A DNA stretch of 25,737 nt, taken from positions 1 through 25,737 of IMG/VR virus record IMGVR_UViG_3300017706_000238; one strand, written 5' to 3'. Positions 13,872 through 25,737 of the stretch are shown piece after piece. The position numbers were made by a program, and so were the translations under genes. Origin of the DNA: a virus. Position 1 is the stretch's first letter. Each line of letters starts with the position of its first letter. The notes under the pieces were generated by a model, which made no database searches, was not told the origin of the DNA, and saw nothing but the letters and a program-made list of their open reading frames with translations.

Positions 13872-13900
13872 TTGACTTGTTATGATAACAATGGTACATT
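13872..13900 (+). promoter_or_regulatory. Sigma70-type promoter with TTGTT-N5-AACAA operator (copy 1)
   Basis: TTGACT (13872-13877), a 17-base spacer, then TACATT (13895-13900), with an overlapping TATATA. The spacer contains the 15-base perfect palindrome TTGTTATGATAACAA (13877-13891). It drives the run of small genes from 13932. Confidence 0.7.
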
Positions 13901-13931
13901 ATATATGTAATCAGAGAGAAAGGTATTACAA

Positions 13932-14165
13932 ATGTCAAACCAAGTAGATTTTATCAGTGCTCATAACGGTGGTATTCAGTGTTGTTCAGATACTGGACTT
14001 ATCGGATGGTCTAACACTGCCGAAGGTATCGCATATATCTTGAAAACTAAAGGTATTGCAGAAACAGTAATGGGAAGTTCTTCAATGGATTTTGCAGACG
14101 AAGAAGGATTTGCAACACACGATGGTGCGAAAATACTTTGGGCACAAGCATTGGAGTTAGTGTAA
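13932..14165 (+). CDS. Small early protein, unknown
   Basis: A 77-residue acidic protein with no known motif and two adjacent Cys (QCCSD). The Gly/Ala-rich N-terminal half and helical C-terminal end suggest a compact fold. The leader carries AGAGAGAAAGG at 13913-13923, an extended ribosome binding site that is complementary over 11 bases to the loop of the putative small RNA at 20131. It is coupled to the next gene by TAATG. Likely expressed early. Confidence 0.6.
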   Translation: MSNQVDFISAHNGGIQCCSDTGLIGWSNTAEGIAYILKTKGIAETVMGSSSMDFADEEGFATHDGAKILWAQALELV

Positions 14166-14989: not shown

Positions 14990-15018
14990 TTGACTTGTTG
15001 TGATAACAATGGTATTAT
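14990..15018 (+). promoter_or_regulatory. Sigma70-type promoter with TTGTT-N5-AACAA operator (copy 2)
   Basis: TTGACT (14990-14995), a 17-base spacer, then TATTAT (15013-15018). The spacer contains TTGTTGTGATAACAA (14995-15009), differing at one base from the copy at 13877 and lying at the same distance from the -10 element. Confidence 0.75.
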
Positions 15019-15048
15019 GTATATAGATGATGAGAAAGGTGATTCGCT

Positions 15049-15273
15049 ATGAAAATTCAAAAAGACATTAAAGACGTTAAATTTTACGGTACAGATATGC
15101 CTGTATCGGAGAATATCGTTATGGCATCTGCCGCTGGGTGGTATGTCGGTGCAGTCTGTAAAGATCCAGACTGTGGTGGTATGATTGTGCCTTTTGATAG
15201 GTACAGTGAGTACTTTGCAACGCCTGAAGAGGTTGTAAAATATTATGGAAACTTATTGGTGGAGGCTGCGTAA
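15049..15273 (+). CDS. Small early protein, unknown
   Basis: A 74-residue protein with two Cys (VCKDPDCGG) and a hydrophobic middle (VMASAAGWYVGAV) probably too short for a span. The leader includes GAGAAAGG (15032-15039), complementary over 8 bases to the small-RNA loop, followed by GTGATTCGCT next to the start. It is coupled to the next gene by TAATG. Unknown family. Confidence 0.55.
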   Translation: MKIQKDIKDVKFYGTDMPVSENIVMASAAGWYVGAVCKDPDCGGMIVPFDRYSEYFATPEEVVKYYGNLLVEAA

Positions 15274-16493: not shown

Positions 16494-16571
16494 CTGCCCT
16501 TAGCTCAGCTGGATTAGAGCAACAGCCTTCTAAGCTGTGGGTCGTAGGTTCGAGTCCTACAGGGCAGGCCA
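16494..16571 (+). tRNA. tRNA-Arg (anticodon UCU)
   Basis: A complete cloverleaf with encoded CCA. The acceptor stem is CTGCCCT/AGGGCAG (7 bp), the D-arm GCTC/GAGC, the anticodon stem ACAGC/GCTGT with loop CTTCTAA (anticodon TCT), the T-arm GTAGG/CCTAC with loop TTCGAGT. The discriminator is G, followed by CCA at 16569-16571. It reads AGA, which is the common Arg codon in these AT-rich phage genes, so it probably supports phage codon use. It lies directly upstream of the phage bS21 gene. Confidence 0.96.
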
Positions 16572-16585
16572 ACTATGAGGAAAAT

Positions 16586-16831
16586 ATGTATAAAAAAAGA
16601 AAAGATAAAGAAACAAATCAAGGTGGATTAACAGTTACAGTTCGTAACGATGATGTTAATGGTGCATTGAGAGTTCTTAAAAAAAGACTTATCAAAGATG
16701 GTTTGTTTCAAGAACTACGAGAACGCTCTTACTTTGAGAGTAAGGGAACGAAGCGCAGAAAAGAAAAGGCTGCAGCTACTCGTAGGTTCAAACGTAAGAT
16801 GTTAAAACGACAGGAAGAGATGGGATACTAG
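16586..16831 (+). CDS. rpsU: Ribosomal protein bS21
   Basis: An 81-residue protein with the bS21 pattern: TVTVRNDDVNGALRVLKKRL, then GLFQELRERSYFESKGTKRR and a long Lys/Arg-rich C-terminal helix. bS21 binds the 30S platform near the 3' end of 16S rRNA and assists Shine-Dalgarno recognition. Phage-encoded bS21 is known from marine phages, including pelagiphages. It begins 14 bases after the tRNA, and the two may be made as one transcript. The N-terminal extension (MYKKRKDKETNQGG) is unusual compared with bacterial bS21. Confidence 0.92.
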   Translation: MYKKRKDKETNQGGLTVTVRNDDVNGALRVLKKRLIKDGLFQELRERSYFESKGTKRRKEKAAATRRFKRKMLKRQEEMGY

Positions 16832-19216: not shown

Positions 19217-20089
19217 ATGAGCTTTGAATTCGATTTTACTAAAGGACATCTCGCAGAAATCATATCTGCTGATGCTGATGATTGGTATGATGCACTGTGC
19301 GAACTGTTACCAAAATACGGTATCACAACAGAACGTAGAGTTGCACACTTTTTAAGTCAGTGTGCCCACGAATCTGGTGGGTTCAAACGATTAGAAGAAA
19401 ATCTAAACTATAGTGCAAAGGCGCTTCGTGCAGTCTTTGGACGATACTTTGGTAACTCACCTAAACGTGATGCAGATGAATATCACCGTAAACCAGAAAT
19501 GATTGCAAACTATGTGTACATGGACGAATATCGTAAGTACAAAATGGGCAACGTCAATGAAGGTGATGGTTGGTTGTTCAGAGGCAGAGGCCTAAAACAA
19601 TTAACAGGTAGACATAACTATACCAAGTTTGGTGAAAGTATTGATATGAGTGCAGAACAAGCAGCAGAGTATGTTGCAACACCAGCTGGTGCAATTGAAT
19701 CTGCATGTTGGTTTTGGGATGCAAATAATCTGAATGATATCGCTGATACAGACAATGTTGTGAAAATGACTAAGAAGATCAACGGTGGCAATATTGGATT
19801 AGAGGATAGACAAAAACGATACTCTCATGCAATGGAAGTACTAGGTATGAGTGTAGAGGATTTAGGTGCAGACGATAGTTCTGTGGAAGATATCCTTGAC
19901 GATATTGGTGTTTTAAGAAAAGGTGCAAAAGGCGAAGGTGTCAAACTTATGCAAGAAGCATTAGGTATTGGTGCAGATGGAGACTTTGGGCCAGGCACAG
20001 AACGTGCATTAAAAGAATGGCAATCAGCAAATGGTTTGGTTGCAGATGGAGTGGCAGGAACTGCTACTTTTGAAAAACTATTTGACTAA
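19217..20089 (+). CDS. Endolysin: GH19 lysozyme/chitinase plus peptidoglycan-binding domain
   Basis: A 290-residue wall hydrolase. Residues about 40-210 are a glycoside hydrolase family 19-type domain with catalytic E52 in QCAHESGGF and the conserved RGRGLKQLTGRHNY (residues 122-135). The C-terminal region from about 232 (LRKGAKGEGVKLMQEALG, then DGDFGPGTERALKEWQ) is a PG_binding_1 domain. It cuts the glycan chain of peptidoglycan. No signal peptide is present, so a holin or membrane damage must release it. A small-RNA-like element follows. Confidence 0.9.
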   Translation: MSFEFDFTKGHLAEIISADADDWYDALCELLPKYGITTERRVAHFLSQCAHESGGFKRLEENLNYSAKALRAVFGRYFGNSPKRDADEYHRKPEMIANYVYMDEYRKYKMGNVNEGDGWLFRGRGLKQLTGRHNYTKFGESIDMSAEQAAEYVATPAGAIESACWFWDANNLNDIADTDNVVKMTKKINGGNIGLEDRQKRYSHAMEVLGMSVEDLGADDSSVEDILDDIGVLRKGAKGEGVKLMQEALGIGADGDFGPGTERALKEWQSANGLVADGVAGTATFEKLFD

Positions 20090-20095
20090 AACTTA

Positions 20096-20124
20096 TTGAC
20101 TCTATGGTATCTTAGTGGTATTAT
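20096..20124 (+). promoter_or_regulatory. Sigma70-type promoter of the putative small RNA
   Basis: TTGACT (20096-20101), a 17-base spacer, then TATTAT (20119-20124). The predicted start near 20131 coincides with the first bases of a 16-bp hairpin, so the transcript is a structured RNA and no coding frame with a ribosome binding site follows. Confidence 0.75.
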
Positions 20125-20130
20125 AGAATC

Positions 20131-20198
20131 ATTGGTGAGGGGCAACTTCCTTTCTCTCTCAACTCTCTCAATAGAGTTGCTCCTCACCAAACTTTTTT
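20131..20198 (+). ncRNA. Putative small regulatory RNA with anti-SD-like loop
   Basis: Right after its promoter, TTGGTGAGGGGCAACT (20132-20147) pairs with AGTTGCTCCTCACCAA (20175-20190), a 16-bp stem with one G-U. A T-run (20193-20198) follows, so the RNA would be about 65 nt and self-terminating. A second terminator at 20201 backs this up. The 27-base loop (20148-20174) is pyrimidine-rich. It contains TCCTTTCT, identical (from memory) to the 3' tail of alphaproteobacterial 16S rRNA, and CCTTTCTCTCT, which is complementary to the ribosome binding region at 13913-13923. Function is inference. Confidence 0.65.
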
Positions 20199-20200
20199 CT

Positions 20201-20230
20201 AAGTTCTTGATTTTCAAGAACTTTTTTTTT
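20201..20230 (+). terminator. Rho-independent terminator (cassette copy 2)
   Basis: AAGTTCTTGA (20201-20210) pairs with TCAAGAACTT (20214-20223) around TTT, followed by a long T-run. It is nearly the same as the terminator at 13822, and like it is followed closely by a promoter with the TTGTT-N5-AACAA spacer. Confidence 0.85.
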
Positions 20231-20240
20231 ACTTTTTCTC

Positions 20241-20269
20241 TTGACTTTTGTTGTAATAACAAGTATACT
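20241..20269 (+). promoter_or_regulatory. Sigma70-type promoter with TTGTT-N5-AACAA operator (copy 3)
   Basis: TTGACT (20241-20246), a 17-base spacer, then TATACT (20264-20269). The spacer contains TTGTTGTAATAACAA (20248-20262). GTGATTCGGAGAG (20279-20291) then gives the ribosome binding site for the metalloprotease gene. Confidence 0.75.
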
Positions 20270-20294
20270 ATTAGTATAGTGATTCGGAGAGATT

Positions 20295-20714
20295 ATGAAT
20301 TATATTGAAATAAACGGTGGTAACAAATACCAAAAGAAAGTTGCTTATAATGTTATCGACACGATGATTAAAGCTCTTATGCCTCGTATGAGAACTTTAG
20401 ACATTACTGTTAACATTCGTAAGTTTACTGATGATGCTATCGGTTACTGCATGATGGAAGATACTAATCGTGAGTTTGAGATTGAGGTTAGTAAGGACTT
20501 ATCCTTGAAAGATTTTGTCACTGCATTGTGTCACGAAATGGTACATGCAAAACAGTACGCTCGTAATGAGATGAGTGGTAACATTACTGACAGACATTGG
20601 AAAAGGTCTACAGTTGCAGACTCAGTTAGTTATTGGGATTTGCCTTGGGAGAAAGAGGCATACCGAATGGAAGATAAACTTGCTCAATTAGTTTGGGAAT
20701 CAAACATACTTTAG
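20295..20714 (+). CDS. SprT-like zinc metalloprotease
   Basis: A 139-residue protein with the zinc-binding motif H80-E-M-V-H84, catalytic E81, and a downstream Glu (E119 or E121, in the segment DLPWEKEAYRME) as probable third ligand, as in SprT/gluzincin minimal proteases found in phages. It lies under the third operator-containing promoter, so it is probably an early product cutting a host protein, perhaps one on DNA. No signal peptide, so cytoplasmic. The protease call is good, the target unknown. Confidence 0.8.
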   Translation: MNYIEINGGNKYQKKVAYNVIDTMIKALMPRMRTLDITVNIRKFTDDAIGYCMMEDTNREFEIEVSKDLSLKDFVTALCHEMVHAKQYARNEMSGNITDRHWKRSTVADSVSYWDLPWEKEAYRMEDKLAQLVWESNIL

Positions 20715-24733: not shown

Positions 24734-24921
24734 TGGAAACAATATGGCATATACTATTGACAGTTTGTTCTGGAAGCACATGTCTAGAACAAGATGTGCA
24801 GTGGTTTCAAACTCAATCAGAATGCGAAGTTATGATGGTTGAGTATACAGAAATTCCAGTTGATGGTGATTGGGATACTGTAGAATTTATTTGTAAGCCA
24901 GTAGGATCAATTTCTTCTTGA
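24733..24921 (+). CDS. Small Cys-containing protein conserved in T4-like marine phages
   Basis: A 62-residue protein with a short hydrophobic N-terminus (IWHILLTVCSGSTC) that may be a signal or anchor, and four Cys. The pattern LTVCSGSTCLEQDVQWF and the end FICKPVGSIS is one I recall from T4-like cyanophages as a conserved hypothetical. Co-translation with the preceding secreted protein suggests a shared envelope role. Its 3' end overlaps the tmRNA promoter's -35 element. Confidence 0.6.
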   Translation: METIWHILLTVCSGSTCLEQDVQWFQTQSECEVMMVEYTEIPVDGDWDTVEFICKPVGSISS

Positions 24922-24948
24922 CTCTTTGGAACTACTGTGGTATAAATA
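24918..24948 (+). promoter_or_regulatory. tmRNA promoter: sigma70-type overlapping a perfect late element
   Basis: TTGACT (24918-24923), a 17-base spacer, then TATAAA at 24941-24946. Read as TATAAATA (24941-24948), the same bases match the T4 late promoter exactly. The tmRNA acceptor piece begins just downstream near 24953, so the gene may be transcribed at both early and late times. Confidence 0.75.
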
Positions 24949-24952
24949 GAGT

Positions 24953-25246
24953 ACAGTTTGTTGATACAAACCGAATACTAGACAGGACATGGGGGCAGTA
25001 CCCATCGCCTCCACCATAATCTCACTTCTAGATGAGATATTGAATCACTGCTTGGGAGTGGGATTATGATGGGGGCGAACTAGGATCGACTGATAGGGAT
25101 AGGTAAGAGTAGAACTGTGGGATAGACGCCTAATAGTCTAACAAAACTAAACGCAAACGATAATTTTGCACCTCAAGGTTACGCTCTAGCAGCTTAATCC
25201 GATAGGGTTTCGGTGGGTTTCCTAGTAACAGAATAACCTACCACTT
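24953..25246 (+). ncRNA. ssrA: Permuted (two-piece) tmRNA
   Basis: A circularly permuted tmRNA gene. The acceptor piece comes first: T-arm ATGGG/CCCAT, acceptor strand CGCCTCC (25006-25012), then ACCA (25013-25016). An intervening 12-bp hairpin (25017-25028 with 25055-25066) is followed by the coding piece starting GGGGGCG (25071-25077). GGGGGCG pairs with CGCCTCC over 7 bp with G-U at the third pair, the alanine identity signal. The tag frame at 25153-25197 encodes ANDNFAPQGYALAA then TAA. A pseudoknot is possible downstream (25203-25206/25221-25224 and 25212-25219/25235-25242). The T-loop GGCAGTA is not the usual TTCRANY. Outer ends are estimated. Confidence 0.93.
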
Positions 25247-25261
25247 AATTTGGAGATTATT

Positions 25262-25737
25262 ATGTATCGTGTAACTGGATATTTTAAAGATAAAAAAGTT
25301 GTACAAAAGTTTGTGGATGTATATGATGCAATAGATTTTAGAGATATTGTGGATGCACATTATCCAGTAAAGGTAACATTTGAAAAGGTAATAGATATGA
25401 GACAATGGGTATATGATTGTTGGAATGGTGTAATGGATATGGATAGAAATCCATTGAGACATATTCCAGATTTACAAGTGAGACATATGGTTTTACAAAT
25501 ACTTGCATGGATGTGGTGCATCGTATTTTCGTTTTTAGTTGGTAGTTTTGTTGTATTTGGTATTAGTGCAATTGCTCACATTATCTTACTTGCAGCTATT
25601 GTTATTACAGTAGGAACATTTGAAACTGCAAAACGTAGACCGTCTTTTTTTAATAATTTCCCTACTGGTACACCAAGTAGGTCTAGACAAGTTATGTATC
25701 TTTCTGGTGATGGTAAAGTTGAAAAAATTAAACTTGA
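25262..25737 (+). CDS. Conserved phage membrane protein (3' truncated)
   Basis: ATG 25262 follows GGAG (25252-25255) and the frame stays open to the window edge (158 residues). The N-terminal soluble part (VTGYFKDKKVVQKFVDVYDAIDF, cut here for length: VTGYFKDKKVV then YDAIDF, HYPVKVTFEKV) precedes two membrane spans (about residues 85-125). A basic, Pro/Ser-rich tail follows. Similar proteins occur in T4-like marine phages. Topology suggests an inner-membrane protein with both ends in the cytoplasm. Function unknown. Confidence 0.65.
   Translation, partial: MYRVTGYFKDKKVVQKFVDVYDAIDFRDIVDAHYPVKVTFEKVIDMRQWVYDCWNGVMDMDRNPLRHIPDLQVRHMVLQILAWMWCIVFSFLVGSFVVFGISAIAHIILLAAIVITVGTFETAKRRPSFFNNFPTGTPSRSRQVMYLSGDGKVEKIKL

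Follow-up and report, generated by a model that had tools for sequence, protein, structure and literature searches.

A conserved family of hairpin RNAs beside the endolysin gene of T4-like marine phages, with a pyrimidine loop that may pair with early-gene leaders

Between the endolysin gene and the SprT-like gene of a T4-like marine phage lies a short hairpin that, judged by its sequence signature, is a member of a genuine, previously uncatalogued family of phage small RNAs; no Rfam match to it was obtained in a scan of the window (the whole 25.7-kb virus record analysed here) or in a relaxed local scan. Related phages carry the same element in 43 or more distinct contexts, and it is present in the isolate Melnitz as well. 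The function we favour, with a probability of roughly 0.45, is that of a phage-encoded trans-acting small RNA which would pair with the ribosome-binding leaders of early mRNAs, blocking early messages and sparing late ones. Transcription of the RNA, its base-pairing in the cell, repression as the direction of its effect and the time of its action are what we infer from the sequences.

All features of this region are on the plus strand. The endolysin gene directly upstream of the hairpin RNA (19217..20089) encoded a PHROG endolysin, GH19-like plus PG_binding_1, and 7 nt past its stop codon begins a sigma-70-type promoter (20096..20124), TTGACT-17-TATTAT, composed of TTGACT (20096-20101), a 17-nt spacer and TATTAT (20119-20124) with a TG before the -10, which puts the +1 near 20131. 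The hairpin RNA (20131..20190), delimited by fold and covariation, has a stem of 17 perfect or G-U pairs, 20132-20148 with 20174-20190, beginning one base after the expected +1, and a conserved 25-nt pyrimidine loop, CCTTTCTCTCTCAACTCTCTCAATA (20149..20173), which is nearly pure C/U, is well exposed in the predicted fold and is presumed to be the target-recognition part. Folding z-scores were -6.3 (20131-20205) and -8.6 (20131-20230), and no shuffled sequence folded as well. The initial annotation, made from the letters of this DNA, had described a promoter and a hairpin without a reading frame bearing a ribosome-binding site; both were recovered at 20096-20124 and 20132-20190, with the stem to be corrected from 16 to 17 bp and the loop from 27 to 25 nt. 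The U-tract that it had assigned to the hairpin is present as a T6 run right after it (20193-20198), but a separate canonical intrinsic terminator with a 10-bp stem and a T run of its own follows (20201..20232, stem 20201-20223), and relatives do not retain the T run behind the hairpin. A transcript of roughly 100 nt ended by this terminator is probable. Directly downstream are an early-type promoter (20241-20269) and the SprT-like gene (20295-20714), a conserved neighbour (together 20241..20714), which thus has its own promoter, placed after the RNA's terminator.

Two side observations concern the promoters. Early promoters of this clade (13872-13900, 14990-15018 and 20241-20269) carry a near-palindromic spacer, GTTATnATAAC or GTTCTnAGAAC, between the -35 and the -10, perhaps a shared operator. 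The RNA's promoter in relatives often contains an inverted repeat, variable in sequence yet paired between phages (AGTAACttagtGTTACT, TAATACC..GGTATTA), of at least 5 bp in 68% of cases versus 26% of shuffles and degenerate in the window; this, too, is a possible operator.

Relatives were sampled in two ways, by retrieving 80 SprT-gene relatives and by searching IMG/VR for two loop strings; R1 matches in L071 and L079-type loci were read as coding sequence and set aside. The resulting catalogue comprised 43 distinct hairpins with a C/U loop and a TTGAC promoter, the promoter being at the same place. Distinct exact loop-core matches in the fetched viral contigs fell into 42 with both hairpin and promoter, 33 with neither and few mixed; three of the 33 were complementary start sites and the rest lay in unrelated contexts. 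Ascertainment by loop string is independent, which matters since pairing was one of the grounds on which hairpins had entered the catalogue. Among fully scanned records, sense copies never exceeded one per record. A host origin was rejected: in 84,980 genomes of bacteria and archaea, a 22-nt loop string occurred only on one archaeal MAG contig, taken as chance.

The closest sequenced isolate to the window phage is Methylophilales phage Melnitz (88% identity in ribonucleotide reductase, 81% in RNase H), in which the element is at 38,546 of MZ577097 and is overlapped by the annotated hypothetical gene MelnitzEXVC044M_66; this annotation (L189:38547-38726) has its start within the hairpin and probably does not represent a gene. 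Pelagibacter phage HTVC008M lacks the element. The window also carries a permuted alphaproteobacterial two-piece tmRNA gene at 24914-25242 (Rfam RF01849, RF04321; placed at 24922-25288 by ARAGORN), and a permuted two-piece tmRNA has been reported for Melnitz as well (PMC9004378).

A first covariance model, based on a MAFFT alignment, caught only 7 pairs; pairs were therefore counted after aligning the stem anew from its outer end, with the loop cut to CTCTCTC and one member of doubtful register (L021) left out. With outer bases in register, 94.4% of positions in 33 distinct arms formed standard pairs, compared with 70.7% after shuffling, and none of 500 shuffles reached as high a value. Changes on both sides were seen at 13 of 13 stem pairs, with 85 double-changed cells versus 21 in shuffles, and the signal was destroyed when partners were shifted by one to three columns. 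The arms are only 53-62% identical among relatives. The loops follow the consensus CCUCUCUCUCAACUCUCUC, with CTCTCTC in 30 and CAACTC in 28 of the 32 unique loops (about 1 expected each by shuffling). Stem covariation and loop conservation, proposed in the initial annotation as a check, were thus both borne out; a loop conserved while the stem varies is the opposite of the pattern that it had named as the mark of a mere terminator, and contradicts that reading.

In the window, the loop is complementary to two early start sites. The perfect 11-nt predicted pairing site AGAGAGAAAGG (13913..13923, plus strand, -17.4 kcal/mol) precedes the early gene at 13932, and a weaker 8-nt site, GAGAAAGG (15032..15039, plus strand), which alone is no better than shuffles, precedes that at 15049; both are exact complements, as originally claimed. 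The 11-nt site beat 300 of 300 shuffled loops, but is one of 54 start sites tested. Within the window alone, genome-wide target scores were no better than those of shuffles (p=0.42), and early start sites did not differ from others (p=0.37, n=5 early leaders); the suggested comparison of targets with shuffled loops therefore failed at this scale, and across the early leaders of relatives it gave a strong excess in eight genomes and a modest one against dinucleotide shuffles. A compensatory change between the window loop and the 13932 leader was considered and rejected, because the GAGAGAAAGG- or GAGAAAGAGAG-type SDs in many orthologue leaders are explained by ordinary SD function.

Leaders behind sigma-70 promoters were classed as early in the Melnitz paper (PMC9004378). 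In these phages they read roughly ...UUGAGAAAAGAGG(U)...AUG; the 5-mers TGAGA, AGAGG, GAGGT and TTGAG, obtained from leaders without bias, are all contained in the loop complement, and no enrichment of AGGAG or GGAGG was observed in early leaders. Since gene starts were called by a simple script and the genomes are related and mostly fragments, the p-values of these target tests are guides rather than proofs. Against 129 early leaders, the loops scored a mean of -11.7 kcal/mol and mononucleotide-shuffled loops -9.2, although dinucleotide shuffles scored as well as the natural loops in this test; against 420 other start sites, the loops were no better than shuffles. With 71 non-redundant early leaders, three natural loops beat 200 of 200 mononucleotide shuffles and, set against dinucleotide shuffles, ranked in the top 1.5-2.5%. 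In eight genomes that carry the element, the excess of the loop over shuffles of the same composition was -3.29 kcal/mol at 58 early start sites versus -0.01 at 635 others (p~1e-10), and HTVC008M, without the element, showed no early-leader excess of loop pairing. The commonly given sequence of the 16S tail shows a preference for early leaders too, with lower selectivity than the loops (difference, p=0.019), which means that part of the loop signal is simply strong SDs.

One contig has a longer match. On IMGVR_UViG_3300025608_000032, which also bears a hairpin (L105/L106, G001), a 20-nt exact complement of that phage's own loop (L195:5975-6001) lies over the start of a gene whose small product looks secreted, and two homologues retain 18 nt of it; GAGAGAGAG is also read at several further start sites of that contig. 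Melnitz contains no contiguous loop match of more than 10 nt outside the hairpin, and its 8-mer test gave p=0.11. Coevolution of loop and targets was rejected, since swapping loops among 30 contigs revealed no own-loop advantage (p=0.90). Relatives whose fragments yielded no element had GA-rich leaders that are equally complementary, so the presence of such leaders is independent of the element.

The fit of the C/U loop to early leaders suggests that the RNA helps turn early genes off. Under this reading, a phage-encoded transcript of about 60-100 nt would be made from its own promoter and act in trans; its rigid, covarying stem would present a single-stranded CCUCUCUCUCAACUCUCUC-type loop, whose pairing partners would be the GA-rich leaders (consensus UUGAGAAAAGAGG) at which ribosomes bind the phage's own early mRNAs, together with a small number of further GAGAGAG-type start sites. 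Ribosomes would be blocked on early messages, and late messages such as that of endolysin, with an ordinary AAGGAG-type SD, would be spared. The sequence has the features of a trans-acting base-pairing sRNA, being noncoding and having its own promoter and terminator and a conserved, accessible pairing region.

The genomic position of the element raises another explanation, namely an element that works in cis, at the 3' end or in the processing of the lysis transcript and, in phages that have the tRNA-Gly, in its 5' leader; the rigid hairpin would protect or define RNA ends and the loop would be a processing or binding site. The start of the element is 26-50 nt past the endolysin stop codon in 43 of 43 relatives, whichever of three unrelated kinds the adjoining endolysin belongs to (GH19-like with PG_binding_1, GH108 or Peptidase_M15_4), and a tRNA-Gly lies directly downstream, between the element and the SprT gene, in 18 of the 43 (about 40%). 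Consistent with a role in cis, members of one subgroup (L009/L010, L014-L019, L053-L054) possess a similar hairpin between the endolysin gene and the next gene but no TTGAC promoter, for which reason their hairpin is probably inside an mRNA. Against such a role, the element elsewhere is preceded by a promoter of its own and its stem begins close to +1, end protection needs no precise loop sequence, many members lack the tRNA, and a T run directly after the stem is found in window-type members only; we regard it as rather unlikely. As to the surroundings in general, a SprT gene is downstream of the element in each of the 39 contigs that extend far enough to show it. Three unrelated endolysin families are seen to swap at one spot next to a constant RNA and SprT gene. 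The promoterless subgroup hairpins have a related C/U loop of the TCCTTTCTCTCTC or CTCCTTTCTC type just upstream of the next gene, and a more distant promoterless hairpin relative (L118) lies 3' of a Peptidase_M15_3 gene.

Rho, ribosomal protein S1 and cold-shock proteins bind pyrimidine-rich single-stranded RNA, and the exposure and nearly pure C/U composition of the loop would also suit a decoy titrating a host or phage RNA-binding protein of this kind, or a site for a phage protein. This is an unlikely explanation, for the exact letters CUCUCUC and CAACUC are kept (in 30 and 28 of the 32 loops), more than a ligand recognised by composition needs, and 25 nt is short for Rho.

The initial annotation had read the loop as a mimic of the 16S rRNA 3' tail that covers SD sequences generally or acts as a decoy for them. 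The octamer concerned, TCCTTTCT, does occur in the window (20148-20155) and is taken by us to match the 16S 3' end, as judged against the commonly given tail sequence; it is, however, not a trait of the family, being found in just 2 of the 32 unique loops. The anti-SD core CCTCC is missing from all 32, versus 6.8 occurrences expected from shuffling. CCTTTCT in 7 of 32 loops (0.7 expected) and the anti-SD-like behaviour of the loops towards early leaders speak for mimicry, but ordinary AAGGAG-type SDs are unmatched: endolysin start sites with such SDs are matched less well by the loops than by shuffled ones (mean z +0.67), a value that also led to rejection of self-regulation of the adjacent endolysin start site. 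With the anti-SD core in no loop and ordinary SDs unmatched, the family, as far as its loops tell, is not one of 16S-tail mimics, and such mimicry appears very improbable.

That the hairpin is only a transcription terminator is hardly credible: apart from the T6 directly after the stem in the window, the 25-nt loop with its conserved sequence, the RNA's own promoter, the lack of a T run in most relatives and the separate canonical terminator all argue against it, and the element does not combine the short loop with the U tract directly after the stem that characterise Rho-independent terminators. No reading frame bearing a ribosome-binding site was found at the hairpin, and a coding frame or leaderless peptide was rejected, as frames shift between members, several lack an ATG, and hairpin lengths modulo 3 are random in relatives (15/17/11).

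Several known systems resemble the proposed one in part. Cuckoo RNAs, or CcsR-type sRNAs, of alphaproteobacteria (RFMSmelA075, RFMSmelA099, RSs0680a) consist of 2-4 hairpins with CCUCCUCCC loops, are encoded in bacterial genomes and are thought to block the ribosome-binding sites of several mRNAs (PMC3927594). The phage RNA shares with them a short hairpin with a conserved pyrimidine loop on a variable, covarying stem. It differs in its loop, which is CCUCUCUCUCAACUCUCUC without CCUCC (CCTCC in 0 of 32) and not CCUCCUCCC, in having a single CU-loop hairpin in each transcript and each genome instead of 2-4 modules, and in its neighbours, which are endolysin and SprT genes whereas Cuckoo RNAs often accompany a DUF1127 gene. 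The antisense RNA C4 of phages P1 and P7 blocks translation by pairing, through complementary segments that are exposed, around a ribosome-binding site (PMC12197685). An exposed segment complementary to a ribosome-binding site is likewise present here, the pairing being predicted; C4, however, controls a single neighbouring gene (ant) in the immunity of temperate phages, whereas the present RNA would be a separate transcript with many potential early targets in a T4-like phage. The Rfam C4 model gave no match in the window scan or the relaxed local scan. The RNA would thus work like Cuckoo RNAs or C4 RNA, yet by these features belongs to neither.

T4 RegA is a protein that acts as translational repressor of early mRNAs; the same role, turning early messages off at the ribosome-binding site, would here be served by an RNA instead of a protein, and a RegA or translational-regulator gene is carried by both HTVC008M and Melnitz. 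Phage-encoded bS21, a ribosomal protein and not an RNA, has been suggested to shift initiation in favour of the phage's late messages (PMC9723584). The window also encodes bS21, its gene following a tRNA-Arg(UCT) at 16494-16831, and the same pair is present in Melnitz at 35298-35661.

Compared with these alternatives, an antisense loop aimed at GA-rich early start sites appears to be the better supported function. A bolder version, in which one small RNA beside the lysis gene would be a master translational switch that recognises GA-rich early leaders and ignores late ordinary SDs, early shut-off then being brought about by RNA and not by a RegA-like protein alone, is tentative and somewhat doubtful. 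To our knowledge, there are hardly any records of conserved small RNAs by which a lytic phage controls its own passage from early to late expression. The present family has a clear phylogenetic signature and occurs in a marine phage that is in culture, Melnitz on OM43, and its proposed function predicts that the two SD types of these phages would be sorted by the RNA loop. That the element keeps its place beside endolysin genes which are unrelated and stand in for one another is a puzzle in its own right.
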